Source of the DNA: Rhodothermales bacterium
Lineage (GTDB): Bacteria > Bacteroidota > Rhodothermia > Rhodothermales > UBA10348
Length of the DNA: 64,000 nt
Assembly (NCBI GenBank): GCA_017643395.1
Contig: JAEPNP010000001.1
Coordinates: 641,806-705,805, forward strand
Direction: 5' to 3'
The position numbers and the translations under genes are program-made. This document shows, piece after piece, positions 49,858 to 61,574 of the stretch; within the stretch, counting starts at the first letter, position 1; each line of letters begins with the position of its first letter. The notes below the pieces were generated by a model that saw nothing but the letters and a program-made list of their open reading frames with translations, was not told where the DNA came from and ran no database searches.

Positions 49858-49930
49858 GGGCCCGTAGCTCAGCGGTTAGAGCAGTCGACTCATAATCGAT
49901 TGGTCGTAGGTTCGAACCCTACCGGGCCCA
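49858..49930 (+). tRNA. tRNA-Ile2 (anticodon CAU), used as integration site
   Basis: A 73-base cloverleaf. The acceptor arm GGGCCCG pairs with CGGGCCC (49,923-49,929), followed by discriminator A. The anticodon loop CTCATAA carries CAU in a stem with GTCGA/TCGAT, and the T arm is GTAGG-TTCGAAC-CCTAC. CCA is not encoded. The anticodon arm and variable region (ACTCATAATCG, TTGGTCG) resemble the tRNA-Ile2 whose C34 is changed to lysidine by TilS, and C4-G69/C5-G68 are present; elongator tRNA-Met is the alternative. The 3' end is the core of the att site of the adjacent element. Confidence 0.9.
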
Positions 49931-49931
49931 C
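49918..49931. other. attL, left attachment site
   Basis: The 14-mer CCTACCGGGCCCAC at the 3' end of the tRNA-Ile2 gene, repeated exactly at 60,739-60,752. The tRNA remains intact on this side. Confidence 0.75.
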
Positions 49932-50322
49932 ATCAATACCATGTAAGCAAATAAGCGGCAGGGACTTACGTTTTCACGGGACAACAAACCCCTCCCCTAC
50001 ACCACGGTTTGTCGTCCCCTCCCGATATGCAGACAGGTCGCGATTCCCTCGCACATGCAGATTAAGGCTGTGGGGTAGGCCAATTAGAGCCGAAAAGCTA
50101 GTCGTCGGAACCACGCTTTCGGGGCTTCCACGCATGAAACCACATGGCCCGACCGGCTTTGGCAAAAACCGAAATGTGAACAAAGGCACCCGCCCCCACG
50201 CCGAAAACAAGCGGGTCCCATGGACACCTCCCCAGGAGGTGGGCTAGAAACGAGCGGGTCCCATGTCGACCTCCCGAAGGGGCACAAGGAAAAGCAAGGT
50301 GCGAACCAGGTTGACAGCGGGA
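49931..50322. repeat. Left end of the element: inverted and direct repeats, no gene
   Basis: No coding region is supported. An inverted repeat has arms GGGACAACAAACC (49,978-49,990) and GGTTTGTCGTCCC (50,006-50,018), 12 of 13 bases matching around a 15-base loop. A short hairpin, CACCTCC/GGAGGTG, lies at 50,225-50,241. The 12-mer GCGGGTCCCATG is repeated at 50,211-50,222 and 50,254-50,265. These may be integrase arm sites, a replication or transfer origin, or a terminator for the tRNA; the role is not known. Confidence 0.5.
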
Positions 50323-50946
50323 TCAAGAGAGGCTGGAATCGACCCAACGTCCGAACGCTTGAGCAACCCAGATAGTGGCCTCGACAATTAACTTGAGATT
50401 GCCTTGCATCATTTGATCCTCGACCATGGTCAGACTATTTGGACCCACCCGAAGCGTGGTCGTAACGTCGGGAATCGCGTTGTTGTGGATGATAACGTTG
50501 CGAAGTTCTCGGGCATCATCCCACCCATAAAGATCCGCCTGAGTGATCTGTCCGGCGACTTGGGATGCCTCCATGATCTCGGCCAAATAGACACGCTTGC
50601 GAACCTTCATGTTGGGCTTTAGCCCGGCCCTCAGGGCCTGCTTTGCCCCGAACTCGCAAGCCGACATCACCGACACAAAGGTGCTGTTGTTCAGCTTCAT
50701 GATCCGTTCGCCATTCTGGGCCTTCAGAGCCGCTACTTGGTTCGCTGTGAGCCCACCGGCGCTGCGATTCCACATCGTTGTGTAGTGGTCAAGAACCTCC
50801 AGACCCATTACAGCGGTGTTGAAGGTTTGGCCCAACACTCCAATCGGTTGCTCGCTGGCTGGCAAGCCGTGCTTGCTGGCGAGTCTATCTCCCTCGTCGC
50901 GGGCGACAACGGCGAGCCGTTTGTAGAGGTCTACGACTTCTTGCAT
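50323..50946 (-). CDS. HEPN-like protein (candidate RNase or defence protein)
   Basis: A 207-residue, mostly helical, soluble protein. Near residue 150 it has RELRNVIIHNN, which contains the R-x4-H pattern (R-N-V-I-I-H) typical of HEPN RNases. Residues 85-110 (KLNNSTFVSVMSACEFGAK) and the last helix (LKLIVEATIWVAQAFGRWV) fit a helical bundle. HEPN proteins act as toxins or effectors in toxin-antitoxin, abortive-infection and other defence systems. No nucleotidyltransferase (MNT) partner gene is adjacent. Lone HEPN proteins exist, so the defence role is inference. Confidence 0.6.
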   Translation of the reverse strand: MQEVVDLYKRLAVVARDEGDRLASKHGLPASEQPIGVLGQTFNTAVMGLEVLDHYTTMWNRSAGGLTANQVAALKAQNGERIMKLNNSTFVSVMSACEFGAKQALRAGLKPNMKVRKRVYLAEIMEASQVAGQITQADLYGWDDARELRNVIIHNNAIPDVTTTLRVGPNSLTMVEDQMMQGNLKLIVEATIWVAQAFGRWVDSSLS

Positions 50947-51444
50947 ATCAGGCGGGCGACTTATTCAAACAGACTGGGTAGCCCGATCTCCTCCACCTGC
51001 GGGAACGAGAGCGAGGCACAACCTGCCCTGTGATGGATTGTCCCGAAGTCGACCAGAACGACTGGTAGGTCAATCACGGTGGTACAGGATAGCAAAAGCC
51101 GACCCCACTCGGGGCCGGATCCGGCGGTCGGGCAGCTTCTTTGTTGTGGCTGAATCTCCAGAGAGTGAGAAAGGGATCGGCGGGTGGAGGAATAACCGAT
51201 GCTCCCAGCGGTCTCGATGCTCTGGTGGCGTGCGTCGCTAGGGCGATAAACTCTTTGATGGGCGTGGGATCCCTCATGCCCGGCGAGGCTCCGGTTGCGG
51301 CTACGCTGGCCCCCTTCACAGGAGGACAGATTAAGACGGCACCCGCGAAGACGTCAGCGGTCGCATTAACAACCCCCTGCGAGACCACCGGCCTGCCCAG
51401 CTGTATACCTTACACCACATCGGAATGACCAATTCATAGAGAGG
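50947..51444. other. Intergenic stretch, no gene supported
   Basis: About 500 bases between the divergent HEPN-like and HTH-protein genes. Short open frames exist on both strands (for example 51,074-51,388 on the minus strand) but none has a convincing start, homology by eye, or coding context. It probably contains both promoters. No repeat stands out. Confidence 0.4.
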
Positions 51445-52341
51445 ATGGGCGAGGACACCCTTTACACGCAGGCGCTTGAGGACTTCGGCGAGGCGGGAAG
51501 AGACCTGGTCGAAGCCTGGTTGGAGGAAGCGTCTACCATGCTTTCTGAGGGACGCTACGTCCTGTTGGCTCATCTTGAGTCCGACGTGAAGCAGGAGCTG
51601 GCAACGATCCGCAAGAGCAGCCGAAGACTGGAGATGCGGACAGCTGCGCTTCAGCTATTAGCGGAGAACATCGAAGGGGTCGCCACCCAGCAGGGTGACC
51701 TGGTTGAGTCGGGAGCCACCCATGAAAGCCTGTCATTCGAGACACGAGGCTCTTTTCTCCGGATCGGCTCATCGATGATCTCATCGCTGCGCACGAACGA
51801 CCGAGACGGAGAGCTTCTGTCAGAGGAGGAACGCCAGATGAAGCTGACCTTCGATGTGAAGATCGGTTCGAGCTGGTCAAGCCTTGTAGATCTCCTTTAT
51901 GAAAAATCTTTCGCCGAGGAAGAGGCGATGTTCGAGCTTGACGAAGTCGCCGAGCTTGTTGAGCTGCGCCATTCGGTGTTGGCTGAAGTCATCCGCCAAT
52001 ACCGTCGGGACGGTTCAGTACGCTCCGTCGAGGCAGACCCATTTGTCCAACGCCTCAAATCAGAACTTGAGGAGCATCGCGCCGAGAAGGCGCAGATACT
52101 ACGCCTTCACGCCATCGCTCAAGAGAAAATTAAAAAGCTCCGAGAAGACAAGAAGACCCTGGTAGCGCAAGCCGAGAGACCAGGGCCAGAAGCCCTCCGT
52201 AACCTGATGGATCAGTGCAGATTCAGAGGCACGGAGAAGGTGAACTACACCGAATTGGCTCGAAGACTAGGGCGATCAGACAAGACCGCCCGCCGCTGGG
52301 TCAGAGAGGCCGGGCTGGAGAGGTACGCGAATCCAGACTGA
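51445..52341 (+). CDS. Helical protein with C-terminal HTH (hypothetical)
   Basis: A 298-residue acidic protein with no signal. Residues about 1-75 are helical and Leu/Glu-rich (EDFGEAGRDLVEAWLEEAS). The middle (100-190) has mixed character. Residues 205-250 form a coiled-coil stretch (LKSELEEHRAEKAQILRLHA). The C-terminal 40 residues contain a likely helix-turn-helix, NYTELARRLGRSDKTARRWV. It may be a DNA-binding regulator of the element. I do not recognise the family. It is convergent with the GIY-YIG gene (10 bases). Confidence 0.6.
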   Translation: MGEDTLYTQALEDFGEAGRDLVEAWLEEASTMLSEGRYVLLAHLESDVKQELATIRKSSRRLEMRTAALQLLAENIEGVATQQGDLVESGATHESLSFETRGSFLRIGSSMISSLRTNDRDGELLSEEERQMKLTFDVKIGSSWSSLVDLLYEKSFAEEEAMFELDEVAELVELRHSVLAEVIRQYRRDGSVRSVEADPFVQRLKSELEEHRAEKAQILRLHAIAQEKIKKLREDKKTLVAQAERPGPEALRNLMDQCRFRGTEKVNYTELARRLGRSDKTARRWVREAGLERYANPD

Positions 52342-52351
52342 TGGCGCTGCC

Positions 52352-53398
52352 TTAGTCGATGTGCCCGCTTTCTCGAAGTAGGTCGAAGACCGATGCCCCT
52401 GCTTTCAGCTTTCTGGCAACCTCGGTGTATTCAAGCCCGAACTCACGGGCGAAAGCCTTCTTGCTGGCAAACACCTCCTTGGTGTGTTCCACTACGACGG
52501 GCTGCGACCAAGGCTTGAGTTCACCGAGCAGCTGGTAGCCCTCCTCCTCAACTAGCGCTAACACGTCTCCGTGCTTAGCCATCCAAGGTCGAGGAGCAAG
52601 CCCGAACGCTTCTTCAGCGGTCTCGCCCGCTTCAAGACGTTGGATTACCGCCGAGTACGCAGGAAGTGTTCGATCCGCTGAAAGCTTTCGATAGGCCTCG
52701 GCAGCGTTGTCGAAGGTTCTCTGCTCTCCGCCGACCTCGACTTCGACGCTGATTCCTTTCGGCCTCTTAGGTGTGCTTACGGCCTCCCGGATTGTCATCC
52801 CGCTTCTAACCCTCGCTGCGATCTGGCGACCGGAAAGCCCGTGGCGATTCAGCTTCTTGTCGGCGGCCAACTCGGTATAAGACCGGTAACGCTTTCTAAA
52901 GACCTCGAACTCTCCCTCGGTGTCCTCCCTTGCTCGAAGGGCTTGCTCGCTGGCTTTCTCCAGGCTCAGACCCTTGCCCAGCCAGTGTTGTAGAGTGGAG
53001 TAGGAAACCTCAAGCTGACGACAGAGGTCGGCCTTAGAGGAATACGAGAACGCCTCATCTCGAATGGTAATCGTACCAGCTTCTGCCAGATCCCGGCGAG
53101 TGCTAGGTGCAGCGACCCTGTTAAGGCCGTTCTCTACTGAGTCGTACTCCTTTATGAAGCGGGTCTCCAAAGCATTCAGCTCCGCCTGCGTGTCGGCTTC
53201 CGCGACCTCCTCTACTACGAACCCATCGGGCCCGAAGGCCCGGATTACTTCGTACAGCGCCCCATTGCCCTTGCTGCGCCGCGAGAAATCGCCCGCTGCC
53301 CTCACGTGCTCCTTCCAACGATCCTGCGCTCTCTTTACAGTCTGGCCGATGTAGACCCCGTTGATCATGGGGTGGGAAATCTTGTAAATGCAGCCCAT
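52352..53398 (-). CDS. GIY-YIG endonuclease with C-terminal repeats
   Basis: A 348-residue protein. Residues 1-95 are a GIY-YIG nuclease domain: CIYKISHP and VYIGQT (the paired motifs), the Arg in DRWKEHV, the metal-binding Glu in LNALETRFIKEYDS, and NGLNRV. Residues about 110-348 contain four related HTH-like repeats of about 50-60 residues, each with a serine or aromatic start and an AxxLxxG-type end (SYSSKADLCRQLEVSYSTLQ, TFDNAAEAYRKLSADRT, VFASKKAFAREFGLEYTEVA). This is the layout of homing endonucleases with DNA-binding repeats. The start ATG at 53,396-53,398 is preferred to one 13 codons upstream. No intron or host gene is seen. Confidence 0.85.
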   Translation of the reverse strand: MGCIYKISHPMINGVYIGQTVKRAQDRWKEHVRAAGDFSRRSKGNGALYEVIRAFGPDGFVVEEVAEADTQAELNALETRFIKEYDSVENGLNRVAAPSTRRDLAEAGTITIRDEAFSYSSKADLCRQLEVSYSTLQHWLGKGLSLEKASEQALRAREDTEGEFEVFRKRYRSYTELAADKKLNRHGLSGRQIAARVRSGMTIREAVSTPKRPKGISVEVEVGGEQRTFDNAAEAYRKLSADRTLPAYSAVIQRLEAGETAEEAFGLAPRPWMAKHGDVLALVEEEGYQLLGELKPWSQPVVVEHTKEVFASKKAFAREFGLEYTEVARKLKAGASVFDLLRESGHID

Positions 53399-53500
53399 TG
53401 TGTTGCGGGATTGGCGGTCGAATGAAGGCAAACGCAAGCCTAAACGTCAACCCCTAACTCAATTTGCGAGTGCTGCTGACGAATCATTAGTTCGACATAG

Positions 53501-53516
53501 TCCGGGATATCCCGGA
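53501..53516. promoter_or_regulatory. Perfect 16-bp palindrome before the excisionase-like gene
   Basis: TCCGGGATATCCCGGA reads the same on both strands and lies 36 bases upstream of the HTH gene start. A related TCCGGATTATCCCGG stretch occurs inside the replication gene near 54,012. It could be an operator or a replication-protein binding site. Confidence 0.45.
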
Positions 53517-53552
53517 ATCCGGAATGGCACCGGTGTGCCACAGGCGGCGGCC

Positions 53553-53879
53553 ATGTCTAACTCAAACATGGTTGCTGTCATGCAAAACCAGTTTGCGATC
53601 CTTTCGACTGAGGATCTCTCTCTCCTCGTTTCCAAGGCGGTTGAGGCAGTCCTCAAGTCCCAGATGCCCCGACTGGCCGAGCGCATCAACTCGCCGGAAT
53701 ACTTCACCCAGGAGGCAGTATGCGCACTGACGGGGTGGTCACGTCGCCAACTACACTACCGCCGGAAGAAGGGATTCATCCCCTACTGCAAACGCGGACG
53801 CACTGTGCTCTTTAGAGCCGAGCAGGTGTACGCTTGGATCGAGGAGGGTTACGTACCTGCCGGGAGGTCGCTGTCATGA
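53553..53879 (+). CDS. Excisionase-like helix-turn-helix protein
   Basis: A 108-residue protein starting MSNSNMVAVMQNQF. The C-terminal 60 residues are a winged HTH of the MerR/excisionase type: QEAVCALTGWSRRQLHYRRK then GFIPYCKRGRTVLFRAEQVY. The Arg/Lys-rich RRQLHYRRKKG part is the likely recognition helix. Such proteins direct excision of tRNA-integrated elements or control their replication genes. The ATG at 53,553 is preferred over an open extension of 55 codons. The stop overlaps the start of the replication gene (ATGA), so the two are coupled. Confidence 0.75.
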   Translation: MSNSNMVAVMQNQFAILSTEDLSLLVSKAVEAVLKSQMPRLAERINSPEYFTQEAVCALTGWSRRQLHYRRKKGFIPYCKRGRTVLFRAEQVYAWIEEGYVPAGRSLS

Positions 53880-54649
53880 GCGGTTCCCATCCTCTAATAA
53901 CAAGCCCCCGTCGTGCAGATAATCTGTCGCTCAGCCCACGACGGTGCAAAGTCGGGACGGACTGGCTGCGCATATCGCTCTGTCAATACGAGATCGACGC
54001 AGACCACCCCTTCCGGATTATCCCGGCCGAACACACCACCCCGGCCGCCCTGTTCCAATCGGGGGACACCGTCTATTGGGGCGTTTGTGCCGCACTTCGG
54101 CAGCCGGGGTTCTCCGCGAGGATTTTCCGGCCCGCCGGGGCCCCAGCTTCCCTTTTTCAGATTCGAATAGAGGCCGCGTGTCAACTCGACGGCATAAACT
54201 TCCCCCTCGCTGATGAGTCGGAACTCCTGCGCGCACTCGCCAACTTGGAGGGAGACTTAGCTGATCTAGGGATTTACACGGACCTGGGCCGCGCGAAGAT
54301 GAGCCAGCTGGAAGTCGGTCAGGACATGGAGATATCCGGACCGCCTGAGGCCTACCTCGAAGTGATCGCCGACCGACGTGCACCATTCCGGGCCCGCCGC
54401 TATTCCCAGGGAAACTGGAGATGCTGGTCGAATCGAGAACGTTCGCTAGCCGTGTATGACAAGTCGCAGGAGATGCGTCGGAGGGGGCGGGATCCGGGGC
54501 AGTCGATTCTCCGGTTCGAGACTCGATTGAAAACCCCACGGTCGGTTCACATCCGAGCTGGATTGAAGACCGTATCGGAACTCCGCCAAAAGGGAATTTC
54601 CGAGGCGCGCGATCACCACCTCCGACTGGTGGGGAGGTTACTCAAATGA
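53876..54649 (+). CDS. Replication initiation protein, filamentous-phage/plasmid gene II-like
   Basis: A 257-residue protein with the pattern of Phage_CRI/gene X-type replication proteins: a late AVYDKSQEMRRRGRDPG segment, followed by ILRFETRLKTPRSVHIRAG, which lie in the right order for the family. Gene II proteins nick and rejoin DNA at an origin to start rolling-circle replication. I could not place the catalytic Tyr with certainty. It is coupled to the HTH gene upstream (ATGA overlap) and to the next gene downstream (ATGA overlap at 54,646-54,649). This suggests that the element replicates when excised. Confidence 0.6.
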   Translation: MSGSHPLITSPRRADNLSLSPRRCKVGTDWLRISLCQYEIDADHPFRIIPAEHTTPAALFQSGDTVYWGVCAALRQPGFSARIFRPAGAPASLFQIRIEAACQLDGINFPLADESELLRALANLEGDLADLGIYTDLGRAKMSQLEVGQDMEISGPPEAYLEVIADRRAPFRARRYSQGNWRCWSNRERSLAVYDKSQEMRRRGRDPGQSILRFETRLKTPRSVHIRAGLKTVSELRQKGISEARDHHLRLVGRLLK

Positions 54650-54948
54650 GAATCGTCGATGGACTCAGGGCAGAAATGGAGGAATATCGCCGAGAACACG
54701 GGGCCCGATGGGTTTCGGCCTACACGAAGGATATGGGCGCATCAGCCTTGGAAAGCTTGGTCGGTCGGAAAAAACTCCTCGCGACGGCGAGCCAGGTCGG
54801 CGGTAGTTCTGCTAGAAGGGCCCTCCAGCAAGCGGTATCTCATGCCAGGAAACGCCGGGAGACGCTCAACCGCACAGCCGTTGGAAATCGAACCCATCGT
54901 GCGCTCCTGGTTGAGATGCGGATGAAGTTGCTTGGTTCGGCAAGATGA
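54646..54948 (+). CDS. Small basic protein coupled to the replication gene
   Basis: A 100-residue, Arg/Ala-rich, probably helical protein (KDMGASALESLVGRKKLLAT, RRALQQAVSHARKRRETL). There is no motif or signal, and I do not recognise the family. Its start overlaps the replication gene stop by 4 bases, so it belongs to the same three-gene operon and may be a replication accessory or copy-control protein. That role is inference. Confidence 0.6.
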   Translation: MRIVDGLRAEMEEYRREHGARWVSAYTKDMGASALESLVGRKKLLATASQVGGSSARRALQQAVSHARKRRETLNRTAVGNRTHRALLVEMRMKLLGSAR

Positions 54949-55213
54949 ATTGCACATCGCTCCCGTATGGTCAGCTCATGGTAGCCGGTCTGGGTTGCGG
55001 AGGAAAAGCTCGCCCCCCACCCCAGCTATTCGCCAACGACGCTGTTCAAGACTCGGCCTTTTTTGCGTGCCATCTGTTGTACCCTGAGCCGTACCTCCTT
55101 ACGCCCAAATGAATCCGCGTTCAAACAGCTCTGCGCACCGGAGGCTCGCACGGCGACACAATAACCGGGACACGTAGGTCGAGCATCTGACGCAGCGCCG
55201 CCGATCCAGGCCG

Positions 55214-56485
55214 ATGAGTTACAGACCCCCCGATAGCCCCGCTGTTGCGGCCATGATCGCCGCCTCCGCGCTTTTCGCGATCATGGCCCAGTTGGTTCAG
55301 GGAGTTGGCGCTGGGGCCTGGTCAGTTCTGGCTCGTGGCACGGTCCCGCTCCTTCTGCTTCTGGTCCTCAGTCCTAGAGCGATCCTTCGTGCCGCGCGGT
55401 CGAGGGAAAGGCCGCTTGTTCTGCGCACCACACTCGCAGCCATCACCATTTTGCTCGCGTTCTACGCCCTGGAGCGCTTGCCCACTTCGCTGGTGGCGGC
55501 ATCGCTAAAGGCAGCACCAGTTTGGCTATTTGTCCTGGCCGTGGTGTCTGGCAGGATTCGACTTGGCCGAAGCAGCCTTTTCCTGATTCCGGTTGTCCTG
55601 GGAATCGTGGTACTAGGATGGCCGAACGAGCAGCATGCAGGCATACCGATGGCTGCCGCACTCCTTGCGGGGCTCGTGGCAGGGGTCTCCTACTCAATGC
55701 TCGCTCAGGTTCGCCGGGCAATCGCGACCGAGGTCGTCGCACATTTTTCCATTGGCCTGACTGTCGTTGGAGCCGTTAGCATCCTGCTAACTGGTAAGGC
55801 TATCCCCTCGGGTTCTTGGCCGACACTATTCGCCATTGGGGCTCTGGCCTATGCTATGCAGTGGCTCGTGGCATTTGCTTTCCGACATGGACGGGGGGAG
55901 ATCATCTCGTTTGTTGGCTACTTCGGGGTCCTGTTCGCGGCTGCCCTGGATATTTTCGTCGCGGATGTGATCCCAGGCACGGGTCAAGTTGTCGGGGCAG
56001 CTCTTCTGCTATCCGGCACGCTTGGTCTTCTAGCCCTAAACCCTAGGCAGATCATGGTCCTGGCCAAGGTGAAGGCTGGTGGATCACTCCAAGAGCTGCG
56101 GAGCTTTTCTGGGGCTTTGGGGGAGGCGATTGCCACGGCTGAGGAATCGACCAGTATCCAGATGGGGATCCGAGTCACTGACGCGGTGATCACCGATGCC
56201 TGGCTCCGGAGAGCCTACGATGAGAGTAGTCTGGGATCGCACGCTCACGGCGTCCTGATTGCGTTCAACCCAGAGGCCCGGTCGCTTGCTGCAGTCGGTG
56301 GCACCGGAATACCCAGGTTCAGATTCGAGCGCGACTTTCGGCACGCGCTGAACCGAGCTTCGAATGCCCATCAGGCTCCTGTGGCTGTCGTGGCGGCGAT
56401 GACGCAACTCGTGGTCGCACTTTCGCCAGAGTATCCCCCAGACGCGAGTGTGGAGGATCTACCGAATGACGTCATTTTTGGCTAG
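55214..56485 (+). CDS. EamA-family (DMT) transporter with C-terminal domain
   Basis: A 423-residue protein. Residues 1-285 form an EamA/DMT transporter with about ten hydrophobic segments (such as LLLLLVLSPR, LFLIPVVLGIVVLGW, GAVSILLTG). Residues about 290-423 are a soluble C-terminal domain (GIRVTDAVITDAWLRRAYDE, HGVLIAFNPEARSLAAVGG). That domain is not part of standard EamA proteins of about 300 residues and I do not recognise it. DMT proteins usually export amino acids, nucleosides or small metabolites. The gene is convergent with the acyltransferase-like cassette and overlaps its last gene by 14 bases, which suggests a shared function such as export of the cassette's product. Confidence 0.8.
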   Translation: MSYRPPDSPAVAAMIAASALFAIMAQLVQGVGAGAWSVLARGTVPLLLLLVLSPRAILRAARSRERPLVLRTTLAAITILLAFYALERLPTSLVAASLKAAPVWLFVLAVVSGRIRLGRSSLFLIPVVLGIVVLGWPNEQHAGIPMAAALLAGLVAGVSYSMLAQVRRAIATEVVAHFSIGLTVVGAVSILLTGKAIPSGSWPTLFAIGALAYAMQWLVAFAFRHGRGEIISFVGYFGVLFAAALDIFVADVIPGTGQVVGAALLLSGTLGLLALNPRQIMVLAKVKAGGSLQELRSFSGALGEAIATAEESTSIQMGIRVTDAVITDAWLRRAYDESSLGSHAHGVLIAFNPEARSLAAVGGTGIPRFRFERDFRHALNRASNAHQAPVAVVAAMTQLVVALSPEYPPDASVEDLPNDVIFG

Positions 56486-57038
56486 GTGCCCGGAGGATGG
56501 CCTCCGCGATGCGGGCCGCTGCGGAATCTCCGTACTTGTCCAGATCCAGCTGGGCAATGACGAAAGGGATTCCTGGAACCTTAGGCGACGGCAGCGGGCT
56601 TACCTCGTAGCCGATATCCTCAAGGAAACGAAGTCGTCGCGACGTTGCGGCTAGGCGTCCCACCAGCGTACGCACTCCCGCGCCGGTAGCGCGCTTCATC
56701 AAGGCCAGTCGCAATCGCATAGAAAGGCCTTGACCGCCGTAGTCCTGGTGTGTGGCTCCACGACCAAGCACTCCGAACGGAGCTGGATGGAGCGAGCGAT
56801 ATTTGGGGATACTCAGCGAGTCCGCCAACTGCGCGTGGTCCGCCAAGACCTGCAGTCGCATAGTGGAGACAATCGACCCATTGATTTCGCATACCATCAC
56901 GAGAGCTGCATCGTCCGAATCGTTCCACAAGGCCCAGCTGTAGTCAGGCTGCCGCAGATTCGTCCCACGCGAATAGGCTCGAACTCTCAGGTCTGATACC
57001 TCCGACGCCCGCTCCCGCCCAACCGTAAGAATCTTCAT
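56472..57038 (-). CDS. Acyltransferase-like (GNAT-fold) protein, paralog 1
   Basis: A 188-residue protein. It has LRVRAYSRGTNL near the start, SIVSTMRLQV at about 55-64, and LGRGATHQDYGGQGLSMRLRLA followed by RTLVGRLAATSRRLRFLEDIGYE, with the G-G-x-G loop expected for acyl-CoA or acyl-ACP binding. The order R...STMR...GRGA...G-G-G-L fits GNAT and autoinducer-synthase-like (LuxI/FeeM-type) enzymes. Paralogs 2 and 3 lie directly upstream with the same layout. The start ATG overlaps the stop of paralog 2 (ATGA). The substrate is unknown. Confidence 0.7.
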   Translation of the reverse strand: MKILTVGRERASEVSDLRVRAYSRGTNLRQPDYSWALWNDSDDAALVMVCEINGSIVSTMRLQVLADHAQLADSLSIPKYRSLHPAPFGVLGRGATHQDYGGQGLSMRLRLALMKRATGAGVRTLVGRLAATSRRLRFLEDIGYEVSPLPSPKVPGIPFVIAQLDLDKYGDSAAARIAEAILRAPSQK

Positions 57039-57709
57039 GACTGGGCCGGGACGAATCCCGTTCCAAGTCGATGACGATAAACCGCCGCCGGTCGGCTCTG
57101 CCTACGTGGCCGACGTCCCCTTTGGGACGCTAGTTGCCGGGGGGGGGGCAGGAGGTTGGCGTACGATTGGAGGTCAGCCTCAAGTCGCCTAATTGCCGAG
57201 TCGCCGTAGACGCGCAGATCCAGTTCGACCAGGACCTTTTCAATGCTTGGGGTGTCTCGCGACTGCAGGGGCATTGCTCGATATCCAAGTTCGCCGAGAT
57301 ACGATAGTCTGCGGGACTGGGCAGCCACGAGTCCGACCAGTGTGTGCACGTTTTGGCTAGCGGCAATCCGCATCAGGTGGAGCCTCAGGTTCATCGAGAG
57401 CCCCAATCCCCCGAATCCCCGCTTGGTCGCCCCACGCCCCAGTAGCCCGAAAGGCGGCTCACCACTAGGCCGACAGGCTGGGCCCAAGATCTTAGCTAGG
57501 GACGCTTCGTCCGAGACTGTACTCAAGCGCATAGTCGAAACGAGCGCCCCGGTATTCTCAACTGCCAACACCGTCGAAGTGTCATCTGTTGTGTCCCACT
57601 CCGCCCACCTGTAGTCACTCGCCTTCGTATGCGCACCCTTGGAGTAGGCTGAGATCCGAAGGCGAGAGATTTCGTCTTTGTGTGATGCGTCGACGCGGAT
57701 TATCTCCAT
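57035..57709 (-). CDS. Acyltransferase-like protein, paralog 2, with homopolymer-dependent tail
   Basis: A 224-residue form as read here. The core matches paralog 1: LRISAYSKGAHT, LVSTMRLSTV, LGRGATKRGFGGLGLSMNLR, TLVGLVAAQSRRLSYLGELGYR. Near residue 190, ten C on the coding strand (57,139-57,148) give LLPPP and carry the frame into an Arg-rich tail that ends exactly at the ATGA overlap with paralog 1. With 9 or 12 bases in the tract the frame would end at once (stop at 57,130-57,132). The start ATG lies 2 bases after the stop of paralog 3, so the three genes are one operon. Confidence 0.7.
   Translation of the reverse strand: MEIIRVDASHKDEISRLRISAYSKGAHTKASDYRWAEWDTTDDTSTVLAVENTGALVSTMRLSTVSDEASLAKILGPACRPSGEPPFGLLGRGATKRGFGGLGLSMNLRLHLMRIAASQNVHTLVGLVAAQSRRLSYLGELGYRAMPLQSRDTPSIEKVLVELDLRVYGDSAIRRLEADLQSYANLLPPPRQLASQRGRRPRRQSRPAAVYRHRLGTGFVPAQS
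57139..57148. repeat. Poly-G/C tract (10 bp) in paralog 2
   Basis: Ten consecutive G on the + strand (C on the coding strand). Long mononucleotide runs are prone to slippage. A change of 1-2 bases alters the C-terminus of paralog 2 and its coupling to paralog 1. Confidence 0.85.
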
Positions 57710-57711
57710 CT

Positions 57712-58315
57712 CTATGTCAGGCCCCTGATAGCGGCTTCGACAGCGGGAAGGGATTGCCCACCAAGGTCGCGCACGATTCGGTGAATAGCGGATTGTCCTT
57801 GGCGTTCAAGATCAAGGACTACGAAGGTCTTGTCGCTGGTGAAGCCAATGGGATGCTCGCCAGGCATGCTAAACGCCTGATACCCAAGGCCCCGGAGGTA
57901 GGCGAGCCGACGCGCATTTCCTGCGACGACCCCGCACAAACACTTAAACCCACGCTGACATGCCTCCACCATAAGCCACACCCGGAGATTCATGGAGAGC
58001 CCCCCCCCCGTGAGTGGGACTAGTTGCCGCTCTACCCAGGCACCCAGCGGGAAATCTGAGATCAAGTCCAGTGGTGAGAACGTGTAGTTCGTCGTCGACC
58101 CCTGACCGAGTCTCGTGGAAAGTCAGGCGCATCGTGGACACTGGTTGATCTCCATCCCAGATCGCCGCAACCACCGCTTTCTCGTCGATAGAGTCCCATG
58201 CAGCCGCTGATGCGTTCCGGACGTTTGCGCCTTGGGAGTAGGCTCGCAATCGAAGTTGCTCAATTGCGCGGTAGTCACTTGTGGTAACGGTTTCCAAACG
58301 TAGGGTGTCTCGCAT
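57712..58315 (-). pseudogene. Acyltransferase-like protein, paralog 3, frame broken at a poly-G tract
   Basis: The N-terminal half (from ATG at 58,315) reads LRLRAYSQGANV, PVSTMRLTFH, LGRAATSPTHGG. The C-terminal half, in a different frame, reads GLSMNLRVWLMVEA, CGVVAGNARRLAYLRGLGYQ, and ends GLT before TAG at 57,712-57,714. The join is a 10-G tract (58,000-58,009). Nine or twelve G would connect the halves, and twelve would restore the same spacing as in paralogs 1 and 2 (about 201 residues). All paralog motifs are intact on both sides, so this is a recent or reversible break, a phase-variable OFF state, or a base-count error. As given, it encodes a truncated product. Confidence 0.7.
58000..58009. 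repeat. Poly-C/G tract (10 bp) at the frame break of paralog 3
   Basis: Ten consecutive C on the + strand (G on the coding strand) within the conserved GGxGLS loop. It is a candidate contingency locus. Confidence 0.85.
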
Positions 58316-58348
58316 TTCGGCCGCCTGCGTTTCGTCTCCCTGGCCATC

Positions 58349-58759
58349 TTAGCAAGCACGCTTGCCGACGGCAAGCCAATTGACTCGGTATTGCTTCCTG
58401 CTCCAGACCGACCAAAACTGTAAGCGGAAGCCGTCTGCAGTCTTGTATTCCACGGACGCCCCGCCGAACCCCGCCTGCCTAGGGTCTTCGAGTTCATGCG
58501 GCATCGCAAAGTGCGAATTCGTGGCCACCACCGAGTACTTCTCGTCGGCGAACCCAAGACCGGCTATGTCCTTGGTCACCCAGTAGAATCGATTTGAGTT
58601 ACCTGGATGGCCGTATTCACCGGTTGTCAGATCTACTTCGCCCCACACCAAGCGGAGTTCGCCGACGTCGACCGCGCGGGTGTACTCTGGACCTTCCGAC
58701 CTAAGGTCATCTACCTGAACAAGTTGGCAGATCAGATTCTGGAGTAGTTGGATGTCCAT
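58349..58759 (-). CDS. Hypothetical protein
   Basis: A 136-residue protein starting MDIQLLQNLICQLVQ. It contains FYWVTKDIAGLGFADEKYSV and a late FGGASVEYKTADGFRLQFW, a mix of strands that suggests a small alpha/beta fold. There is no signal or recognised motif. The ATG at 58,757-58,759 overlaps the start region of the divergent gene by 12 bases; a longer start at 58,840 is possible. The next gene downstream, 33 bases away, is paralog 3, so it may lead the acyltransferase operon. Confidence 0.55.
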   Translation of the reverse strand: MDIQLLQNLICQLVQVDDLRSEGPEYTRAVDVGELRLVWGEVDLTTGEYGHPGNSNRFYWVTKDIAGLGFADEKYSVVATNSHFAMPHELEDPRQAGFGGASVEYKTADGFRLQFWSVWSRKQYRVNWLAVGKRAC

Positions 58760-59326
58760 GGGTCCTCGGCGTCTTGTGAGTTCCTCGTCTGCTACGATTA
58801 TCCTTGCAGTTGCTACGGATTGCGTAACCACCAGAACCAACCAGTGCCACCCGACCTCTTCCGAGACCTTTTCGTTGACCCCGAACTGCTTCCGCAGGTT
58901 CAGGAGGGCTGGCTTGAACTCTTCCCAGGAAGCATGTCTGGATACGATTCCAGCTGGAATGCTGGTCCTGCGGGTTCAATCAAGGGCGTGCTTTGGGCGG
59001 CCTCCAAATGGTTGCCGAAAGCCAGAATAGGAATCGACCTTAGCGGCTGGAGTTGCAGGGGATGTGGTTACGCAAGCTTTCTAAGCATGCTTTGTCGAGT
59101 CCTCGATCACACAAATCGCCCAACCTTTGAGGAGAAGATCCTTCCCTACGTCGAGTCTCTCCGCGACGACCCAGATTTCGCCGTCAATGCGGAAGCAGCC
59201 CTGCCGCTTGTTGTACGACTCCATTCGCCAAGCGCCCGCCTACTGGACCAGCTAGAGTACTACCACGAGAGAAAGCGGGTCATGGAATTCGCCATAGGCC
59301 TAAGGTGGTGGGGGCAGAGTACCTGA
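58748..59326 (+). CDS. Hypothetical protein with several Cys residues
   Basis: A 192-residue protein as read from TTG at 58,748. The N-terminus carries CEFLVCYDYPCSCYG and the centre DLSGWSCRGCGYASFLSML, so it has several Cys in pairs. They could bind a metal, although the spacing does not match a known zinc ribbon with certainty. The C-terminal part is helical (ARLLDQLEYYHERKRVMEF). The start is uncertain because it overlaps the divergent gene. I do not recognise the family. Confidence 0.5.
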   Translation: MDVHGSSASCEFLVCYDYPCSCYGLRNHQNQPVPPDLFRDLFVDPELLPQVQEGWLELFPGSMSGYDSSWNAGPAGSIKGVLWAASKWLPKARIGIDLSGWSCRGCGYASFLSMLCRVLDHTNRPTFEEKILPYVESLRDDPDFAVNAEAALPLVVRLHSPSARLLDQLEYYHERKRVMEFAIGLRWWGQST

Positions 59327-59418
59327 GCGTTCCACGGGCAGCATCGGTCCAACAAGCTCACAGCCCCACTCCATGCCCAGGCAGCGACCCTTGGTGTGCT
59401 TGGCGCTCGCTCAGAACG

Positions 59419-60600
59419 CTAGAAGATCGACTCGACAAGCGCGTCCACAGCATCTTGGTCAAAGCTGCTCAAGTAGCTCTGGGTAATCTGGATATTTGAG
59501 TGTCCTAAAGCCTTGCTAATCGCGTACAAGTCCCCTCCTGACACTCTCGCGTGGTCTGCGAAGGAGTGTCGAGCGACGTGCATTGTAAGACCGCCAGATT
59601 GCACGCCCGCCGCTTCCGCCACCTTCTTGATGTTTCGGTTTGCAATGACGTTGCGGGAGGAGATCCGCCTCTTGGCGGTTGGCAAGTCTCGTAGGTCCCC
59701 AGAGCGCAGGTACGGAAATAGGCAAGGAAAGCCTGCCAAGGGATATCTAGTTGAGATAACGAGTGCCTGTTCAGGTAGCTTTACGCTGACGGGTTGGCCG
59801 GTCTTCATCATGCGATAGTGAAGCCTGCCGTCTACCATATTCTCGGGCTTGAGCATGCAGAGGTCGCCGAAGCGAACCCCGCTCGCATAGAAGGAAAACA
59901 GGAAGGCATCCCGAGAAATGGCCAGCGCACCGCCCTCGCCCAGCGACAGAGATTCTATCGCGGCGATCTCCTCCCGCTTCAGTCGTCGCTTCTGTACTGG
60001 CTCGGCGCTGGGCCGTTGATACCCTCGAAACGGATCGGTGTCCGAGCTTAGGAGACCACGAGCCACCTGTCGCCTATGAAGGCGGCGGAGTCGCTTCAGG
60101 TGATTGCGGACGGTGTTGTTGCTATTACCATCGATCTCCCGCAGGAAAGACTCGAATCGCACGAGAGAGGCTGCATCTAGATCCCTCCAGGCGACGAGCT
60201 TGCCGAAGCATCGCTCGACCTTATTTCTGAGGACTCCGAAGTGCTTGAGCTCCCAGACCTTGCCCTGCCCCCCCAGGACGTCGCGGAACGCGTCCAGATC
60301 GTCGAGTAGCAATCCAGACCCAATCTTGGCAGCCCTCACCACTGCGCGTGCTGTGGGGGCGTCCAGGCCCCTCTCTCGGGCCTCGTTGAGCATTTGCTCA
60401 ATCTTGCGGTTGTAGGCATCCGCGAGATCGTGGCTGCTGCGAACTCGCGCCCGCCGCTCATTCCACTCTGTAGTCCTTACGGCTATGCCAACGGCGTACT
60501 TGCTGGTCTTCCTGTTTACCGTGACCCGGATGTAGATCGGGCAGGTACCGTCTGCCCGCAGCCGATCTTTTCTGATAATGGCCTTGATGGAGGCGGGCAT
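59419..60600 (-). CDS. Tyrosine recombinase / integrase
   Basis: A 393-residue integrase of the Bacteroidota type. An arm/core-binding N-terminal region (KAIIRKDRLRADGTCPIYIR, then about 95-195 of SAM-like helices) is followed by the catalytic domain, with Arg in YASGVRFGDL, Lys in RMMKTGQPVSV, the H-x-x-R of HVARHSFADHA, His in LGHSNIQ, and Tyr nucleophile in ITQSYLSSF. The ATG at 60,598-60,600 is chosen over an extension of 8 codons. It lies 139 bases from attR1 and reads toward the element's interior. Confidence 0.92.
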   Translation of the reverse strand: MPASIKAIIRKDRLRADGTCPIYIRVTVNRKTSKYAVGIAVRTTEWNERRARVRSSHDLADAYNRKIEQMLNEARERGLDAPTARAVVRAAKIGSGLLLDDLDAFRDVLGGQGKVWELKHFGVLRNKVERCFGKLVAWRDLDAASLVRFESFLREIDGNSNNTVRNHLKRLRRLHRRQVARGLLSSDTDPFRGYQRPSAEPVQKRRLKREEIAAIESLSLGEGGALAISRDAFLFSFYASGVRFGDLCMLKPENMVDGRLHYRMMKTGQPVSVKLPEQALVISTRYPLAGFPCLFPYLRSGDLRDLPTAKRRISSRNVIANRNIKKVAEAAGVQSGGLTMHVARHSFADHARVSGGDLYAISKALGHSNIQITQSYLSSFDQDAVDALVESIF

Positions 60601-60738
60601 TCGGGGACAACAGTGGGGCAACAAGTATCGAGGCCGAGTGCAACGAGACTGTGCAACTCGTGACTCAACACACGTATTTTAGGTATTTTGAAGCGGTATT
60701 GCACAGGGATGCTGCTTTTCGGAACAAGATGTTGTTGT

Positions 60739-60752
60739 CCTACCGGGCCCAC
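60739..60752. other. attR1, right attachment site
   Basis: An exact copy of the 14-mer at the tRNA 3' end, CCTACCGGGCCCAC, in the same orientation. The sequence continues TATGGGG. Confidence 0.7.
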
Positions 60753-60878
60753 TATGGGGCAGCCCTGTTTGCCGAAGGCCGGCAGGGCTGTGCCATATCA
60801 TGCCGGTCGGGTTCGAACCGTATCAGGTTCACACGAGCGAAGCGACTGACGGAGCGAGCCTCAGCGAGCGCAGTAAAC

Positions 60879-60892
60879 CCTACCGGGCCGAC
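60879..60892. other. attR2, second att-like site
   Basis: CCTACCGGGCCGAC, one base different from the att core, with ACTATG following as at attR1. It lies 140 bases beyond attR1, immediately before the lipoprotein start codon. Between the two sites, GGTTCGAACC at 60,809-60,820 resembles a T-arm, so tRNA-like remnants may be present. Confidence 0.5.
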
Positions 60893-60893
60893 T

Positions 60894-61574
60894 ATGACAA
60901 TTCCCATGCTCAAGCGTCTGCCAATACTTCCGGTCCTGCTTCCACTTCTAGTGTTGGTCGGATGCGACACCGGTGCAACCCTGGACGGAGATTCCGGTCA
61001 GGTGACCGAGCTGGTTCCCCTGGGCCTCGGTCATTCATGGATCCTGCAGCGTACCGGTTGGATCCGAACCGATCACCAGAACGAGTCCTTCTCCTGGGTG
61101 GAGTCCTGGGTCGTAGACAGGGATACACTTATCGAGGGCGAAACGTGGTACAGTGTGCTGCAGACATCCACAGAGAGCACTCCAGCATTCTCCTGGCGAA
61201 GCGGGTGGCACACAAATCGCACTGACGGCATCTGGCGGTTCGACAATGGCGGCAGCAGCCAGGAAGCAGAGCTATGGATTCCGCTCCTGAACGCGGAGGG
61301 AGACGCGGTCACTACCATCCCGGGCACGGAATACAGACTGGTCGGCGTCTCTGATGACGGACGCTCACGAACTTTCCGCAGGACAACGACATGGCTGCCG
61401 GGCGTAGACGTGGAACTGCCGGTACCGCAGGTTGACCTCATCCGGATATCGGAAACCGAAGGATTTGTCCATCTGAGCGATTTCGTGTTCTCCAGCGAGG
61501 CGGGTGGACCTTGGTCCAAGACCATGCAGCAAGAGTGGAACCTCTTGCGATTTCAACCGGGCACGCGCCGTTGA
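60894..61574 (+). CDS. Lipoprotein of unknown function
   Basis: A 226-residue protein with a lipoprotein signal: MTIPMLKRLPILPVLLPLLV then LVGC, with Cys-24. The mature part is strand-rich (SWVESWVVDRDTLIEGETWY, IWRFDNGGSSQEAELWIPLL, FVHLSDFVFSSE) and may be a beta-sandwich. There is no recognised catalytic motif. The frame is open upstream to 60,651, but the ATG at 60,894 gives the signal. The start codon directly follows the attR2 core (ACTATG). Confidence 0.75.
   Translation: MTIPMLKRLPILPVLLPLLVLVGCDTGATLDGDSGQVTELVPLGLGHSWILQRTGWIRTDHQNESFSWVESWVVDRDTLIEGETWYSVLQTSTESTPAFSWRSGWHTNRTDGIWRFDNGGSSQEAELWIPLLNAEGDAVTTIPGTEYRLVGVSDDGRSRTFRRTTTWLPGVDVELPVPQVDLIRISETEGFVHLSDFVFSSEAGGPWSKTMQQEWNLLRFQPGTRR

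Follow-up and report, generated by a model that had tools for sequence, protein, structure and literature searches.

The ten-base G tract that splits paralog 3, the first of three related acyltransferase-like genes on the minus strand of a Rhodothermales bacterium contig, may belong to a genuine slippage-variable locus that combines translational ON/OFF control with switching of a C-terminus. We favour this reading tentatively and put it a little short of an even chance, with paralog 3 assembled in the OFF state. The array would then be a mobile locus of three GNAT-type acyltransferase genes carrying two tracts subject to replication slippage. The assembled G10 in paralog 3 would leave the C-terminal half of the protein out of frame, and slippage to 9 or 12 would give the full-length enzyme. 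The second tract, a C10 in paralog 2, would exchange the C-terminus without abolishing the enzyme; at 10 C, translation would cross an RNA hairpin and end at a stop codon overlapping the paralog 1 start, an arrangement that may couple the two genes. Positions below refer to the 64,000-nucleotide stretch of DNA that was analysed (the window).

The broken gene and its G10 tract

Paralog 3 (58315-57712, minus strand) is the most upstream gene of the array, and the ten-G tract is its sole break. The tract lies at 58000..58009 on the minus strand (C10 on the plus strand, G10 on the coding strand) and splits the gene in a glycine-rich loop, where the coding strand reads ...CCC ACT CAC GGGGGGGGGG CTCTCC ATG AAT.... 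Ahead of it, the N-terminal half (58010..58315, minus) encodes 102 aa and, in alignment with paralogs 1 and 2, carries the conserved blocks LRLRAYSQG, VSTMRL, and GCLGRAAT. Beyond it, the C-terminal half (57712..57999, minus) encodes 95 aa followed by a stop codon and carries LSMNLR, RRLAYLRGLGYQA, and LDL. The blocks common to all three paralogs are LR-x2-AYS-x-G, VSTMRL, and LGR-x-AT before the position of the break, and LSM-x-LR, RRL-x2-L-x2-GY, and LDL after it. Both the coordinates and these blocks agree with the first-pass annotation, which had described two motif-bearing halves meeting exactly at a ten-base run.

Translation from 58315 with 8, 9, 10, 11, 12, or 13 G gives proteins of 107, 200, 123, 108, 201, and 124 aa, respectively. 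At the assembled length, the frame exits after GGG and ends at a stop codon at 57944. Among the lengths tried, 8 to 13, the two halves rejoin only at 9 or 12, as had been proposed; it was likewise confirmed that twelve G give the loop length of paralogs 1 and 2, with nine giving one residue less. Further inactivating changes had been named as evidence that would speak against a switch, and none was found in either half: over the 604 bp of the gene there is no further stop, indel, or frame break. Paralog 3 therefore presents a long intragenic homopolymer, single-base toggling between frames, and an otherwise intact gene, three features expected of translational ON/OFF switching, which is itself defined by variation of the tract length.

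At the homologous site, paralog 2 reads GGG GGA TTG GGG, i.e., a G5-ATT-G4 stretch, so the pure tract of paralog 3 may derive from an interrupted one of this kind. With the host share of GGG among glycine codons (0.196), GGG GGG GGG is expected at about 0.8% of Gly-Gly-Gly sites, and with the island share (0.294) at about 2.5%. A G10 run is the kind of DNA in which slippage is to be expected. Counting against a slippage locus, the tract of paralog 3 lies in the middle of the gene, within the cofactor loop, a place where glycine codons would be expected in any case.

The array, its predicted fold and a second tract

The three genes are tightly packed. The stop codon of paralog 3 lies 2 nt ahead of the ATG of paralog 2 (57035..57709, minus; a member of the GNAT-fold family, with 224 aa at the assembled length), which is followed by the intact paralog 1 (56472..57038, minus; 188 aa, with a predicted GNAT fold). 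Of the copies, paralog 3 has diverged furthest, with 36% identity to paralog 1 as against 47% for paralog 2. Upstream of it, on the same minus strand, lies an uncharacterised ORF (58349..58756, with its start assumed at 58756), and an EamA-like transporter gene, whose Pfam match is under the cutoff, converges on the array from the other side (55214..56485, plus). A consensus promoter scan gave no match.

The second ten-base tract, absent from the first-pass annotation, lies at the 3' end of paralog 2 (57139..57148, minus), with C10 on the coding strand and G10 on the plus strand. It begins at nt 562 of the gene, near the stop codon that is reached with nine C, and it sets the choice of C-terminus: with 9, 10, or 11 C, paralog 2 encodes 192, 224, or 202 aa, and the body of the enzyme is kept while its C-terminus is swapped. 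This layout, a 3' tract with alternative C-termini and a retained domain, is that of C-terminal phase variation. The GC contents at the three codon positions are 0.74/0.68/0.47 in the last 34 codons of the assembled frame, compared with 0.61/0.48/0.67 in the body of the gene. As this is a non-coding pattern, the 34-codon tail was probably once intergenic DNA, and paralog 2 probably has its natural end in the frame with 9 or 12 C. The two tracts differ in their position within the gene and in the base on the coding strand, which indicates, at the level of sequence, that they arose independently.

In the assembled frame, the stop codon of paralog 2 overlaps the start codon of paralog 1 as ATGA. 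Directly upstream of that start codon is the strong hairpin CGGGA-UUCG-UCCCG (57050..57063, minus), and the 126-nt region containing this UUCG-loop hairpin has a more stable fold than 195 of 200 shuffled versions. It is possible that paralog 1 depends, via the hairpin, on ribosomes arriving from paralog 2. Because paralog 3 heads a tight three-gene array, its own tract may also act on the genes downstream. The phase-variable OFF switch proposed in the first-pass annotation is thus upheld in part: the slippage geometry, the lack of any other lesion, the neighbouring tract, and the intact frames at runs of 7-9 bases elsewhere all support it, whereas its restriction to paralog 3 has to be widened to the array.

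As to what these genes encode, paralog 1 was modelled with AlphaFold2 with the other copies as input, and the model has a GNAT fold (pLDDT 79.7). Compared with the PDB, it matched 714 chains at E <= 0.001, at the top of which stand acyl-homoserine lactone (AHL) synthases and GNAT acetyltransferases; the best matches by E-value are BjaI (8e-9), RpaI, and EsaI, mixed with GNAT acetyltransferases, at a TM score of about 0.6. The best Pfam match of all three paralogs is the FeeM N-acyl amino acid synthase family (PF21926), with 15.3-19.9 bits against a cutoff of 27, and this family has no hit above the gathering cutoff in the organism's own genome. The LuxI-type autoinducer synthase family model was not matched in Pfam and NCBIfam scans. 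By predicted fold, the array proteins would therefore belong to the GNAT superfamily, with the cutoff of a specific family reached by none of them. In the model of paralog 1, the position of the tract corresponds to a glycine-rich stretch ahead of helix 105-119, which, from knowledge of the fold, we take to be the cofactor-binding place of GNAT proteins. We infer, and only infer, that the activity would be N-acyl transfer.

Tract lengths and competing explanations

Long G/C runs are scarce in this genome. Its 4,506,337 bases (21 contigs) contain 14 G/C runs of at least 9 bases and six of at least 10. Of these six, the two array tracts, 861 bp apart, are the only intragenic ones, the remaining four being intergenic by codon scoring. 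Six sites placed at random would include a pair this close with a probability of about 0.006, a post hoc test to be used as a guide only. A shuffle of the window alone is blind to this rarity, since both tracts are shuffled along with everything else. The second long tract in a neighbouring gene strengthens the case for a slippage locus, as does the lack of frame breaks at runs of 7-9. That the genome holds almost no such tracts in its genes weakens the case; many carriers of proven poly-G switches have numerous tracts of this kind. The sequence itself establishes where the tracts lie, their assembled lengths, the frames and stops, the order of the genes, the scarcity of such tracts in this genome, and the island setting. 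On the favoured reading, we infer that the assembly has the lengths right, that these differ within the population, that expression downstream changes, and that the enzymes transfer acyl groups.

Other long runs deserve mention in their own right. In the same genome, a twelve-G run, one of the four scored as intergenic, starts within the stop codon of a gene for a sigma-54 response regulator (L013: 1490-1512), and low-complexity G/C-rich DNA follows downstream of it. Four genomes of the same family (G005, G006, G022, and G025) contain far more poly-G runs of at least 10 than other relatives do; many of the runs in G005 and G006 lie at contig ends and so may be sequencing artefacts.

The first-pass annotation had named a sequencing length error as the main alternative, and that assessment stands. 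The true tracts would be in frame, e.g., 9 in both, the consensus would be one base too long, and both genes would be intact. We consider this appreciably probable, at about one chance among three. Both intragenic tracts are indeed one base over the length that yields the expected protein, which makes such an error a serious alternative, and this common excess fits a uniform counting error or slippage from an in-frame nine alike. The assembly, with 21 contigs of which one measures 2.1 Mb, has a contiguity that suggests long-read sequencing, and ten is the length at which a long-read consensus turns unreliable: with R10.4 nanopore data, most homopolymers are resolved below 11 bp, and runs of 10 or more "will probably still be problematic" (PMC9262707). 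The non-coding codon-position GC of the assembled paralog 2 tail points in the same direction.

Shorter runs bear on this explanation from both sides. A check of 464 kb of the assembly found the frame preserved at those G/C and A/T runs of 7-8 that are located deep within strongly coding ORFs, and the 9-base runs in genes for an outer-membrane protein and an oxidoreductase are in frame as well. Length errors at runs of up to 9 are accordingly rare in this assembly rather than general. The nine-base runs in clear genes, all in frame, count in favour of a length error at ten, whereas the shorter runs without frame breaks speak against an error-prone consensus, as do the runs of 11 and 12 that the same assembly reports elsewhere. 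Moreover, a true nine-base G run would itself be prone to slip. A frameshift census based on Viterbi coding frames was discarded: under a strict penalty it gave no hits but had zero sensitivity on planted deletions, and under looser penalties its hits were indistinguishable from ordinary gene junctions. The direct check of runs of 7-8 was used instead.

It is also conceivable, though unlikely in our judgement, that paralog 3 is a fixed frameshift pseudogene, inactivated once by slippage, with no switching back, and bound to decay. Cargo genes of islands are often dispensable, paralog 3 is the copy that has diverged most, and third-position GC is lowest in its N-terminal half (0.55). Set against this are the absence of additional lesions along the entire gene, the conserved residues kept on both sides of the tract, and the nature of a G10 run, which reverts at a high rate.

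A bolder version of the slippage-variable reading, which we regard as quite improbable, holds that the mobile island carries an array of acyl-signal or acyl-lipid synthases governed by two independent slippage switches in series, so that individual cells would make differing product blends. The first tract would act as an on/off control of the upstream synthase and possibly of those downstream; the second would determine which C-terminus the middle synthase has and whether ribosomes get as far as the third start codon.

Very improbable, finally, is recoding, by which ribosomes shifting frame or RNA polymerase slipping at the G10 would yield some full-length paralog 3 with the DNA unchanged: the gene is otherwise intact, and both polymerases and ribosomes slip readily on homopolymer runs, but a conserved frameshift site finds no support, homologues having not been found in the collections searched, and slippage is better documented at A/T runs. 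Reading the break through as one frame by means of a four-letter code was rejected, as other GGGG words were read too.

The mobile setting and known systems

The array is cargo of a GC-poor integrated island of about 10.8 kb (49858-60752). Its integration target is a tRNA-Met(CAT) gene (49858..49931, plus), whose 3' end forms the left attachment repeat CCTACCGGGCCCAC (14 nt; 49918-49931, plus); the same repeat, CCTACCGGGCCCAC, recurs at the right border (60739..60752, plus). Adjoining the right repeat is the tyrosine integrase gene of the island (59419..60624, minus; Phage_integrase, Arm-DNA-bind_5), and the island also encodes an excisionase-like HTH gene and a GIY-YIG endonuclease gene. Its GC content is about 0.57-0.61, or about 0.58 as a single figure, compared with about 0.64 to its left. 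An integrase, a tRNA 3'-end repeat at both borders, and a deviant composition are thus all present, as in tRNA-integrated islands. The DNA to the right of the right repeat resembles what follows a tRNA-Val in this genome, as would fit tRNA-flanking DNA that has been displaced. At the left, the border is inexact, the first 17 nt after the tRNA-Met matching those that follow the same tRNA in a congener at 13 of 17 positions. In the two congeners compared for an empty site, the flanking genes are not conserved. When defence-system models were applied, the one array member scanned had no match, and two other island genes had only weak matches at the level of a helix-turn-helix and a homing endonuclease.

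Two further repeats were seen in the island region. At its right end, an att-like pair of 18 nt (60739-60756 and 60879-60896) is 94% identical over a spacing of 140 bp and may be left over from an earlier integration. Two 35-nt near-repeats (50205-50282), 80% identical and 43 nt apart, lie in the gene-poor stretch at the far left of the island.

A homologous locus was not found among the searched genomes of the genus, family, order, and class or in 395 genomes of the phylum, nor was a homologue found in the genome_contigs and viral_contigs collections or, by tblastn, in the plasmid and phage collections. At class level, a weak match in G459 (E 3e-4) covers half the protein, and its ORF translation looks by eye unlike a real relative; a match in G467 is weak (E 0.01). 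As far as the searched collections go, the array appears to be an orphan.

If the tract lengths vary in living cells, this locus would represent slippage-driven switching of small-molecule enzymes on a mobile island. In the literature consulted, most of the proven cases concern bacteria associated with hosts and affect their surface structures and receptors. The pair of tracts would then allow a test of whether slippage can retune a whole enzyme array. If the tracts were miscounted, they would instead serve as a clean caution that a ten-base run in a draft genome can pass for a switch.

The closest parallel to paralog 3 is found in the pilus operons of Bifidobacterium, in which a G11/G12 tract inside the first gene has been shown to slip and downstream genes are affected (PMC9187656). 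As in the sortase-pilus operons of Bifidobacterium breve, the first gene of the array is split into two ORFs exactly at a G10-12 tract, one length joins the ORFs, and the assembly shows an OFF length (PMC9187656). In B. breve, length mixtures were measured and pili were shown (PMC9187656); the array is described here from assembled sequence, and instead of a surface protein, paralog 3 encodes a GNAT-type enzyme with its tract in the middle of the domain. For paralog 2, the counterpart is Helicobacter canadensis, in which C-termini are switched via late poly-G tracts of 10 or more (PMC2823697). Here, too, a 3' poly-G/C tract of at least 10 leads in each frame to a different short C-terminus. 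In H. canadensis, variation was seen in reads (PMC2823697); paralog 2 is described here from assembled sequence, and one of its frames also runs into the start codon of the next gene.

The enzymes share their predicted GNAT fold with FeeM (PF21926) and the LuxI-type AHL synthases, and BjaI, EsaI, and RpaI are among their top structural matches. They differ in that their Pfam scores of 15-20 bits are below 27, the LuxI model is unmatched, and a TM score of about 0.6 is no better than that of many plain GNATs. The island resembles other tRNA-targeted integrative islands in having an integrase near one end, a tRNA 3'-end repeat at the other, an excisionase-like HTH gene, and a lower GC content, but its cargo is an otherwise unseen acyltransferase array. 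The type of mechanism is already known; what would stand out here is the type of enzyme, the pairing of the tracts, and the mobile setting.
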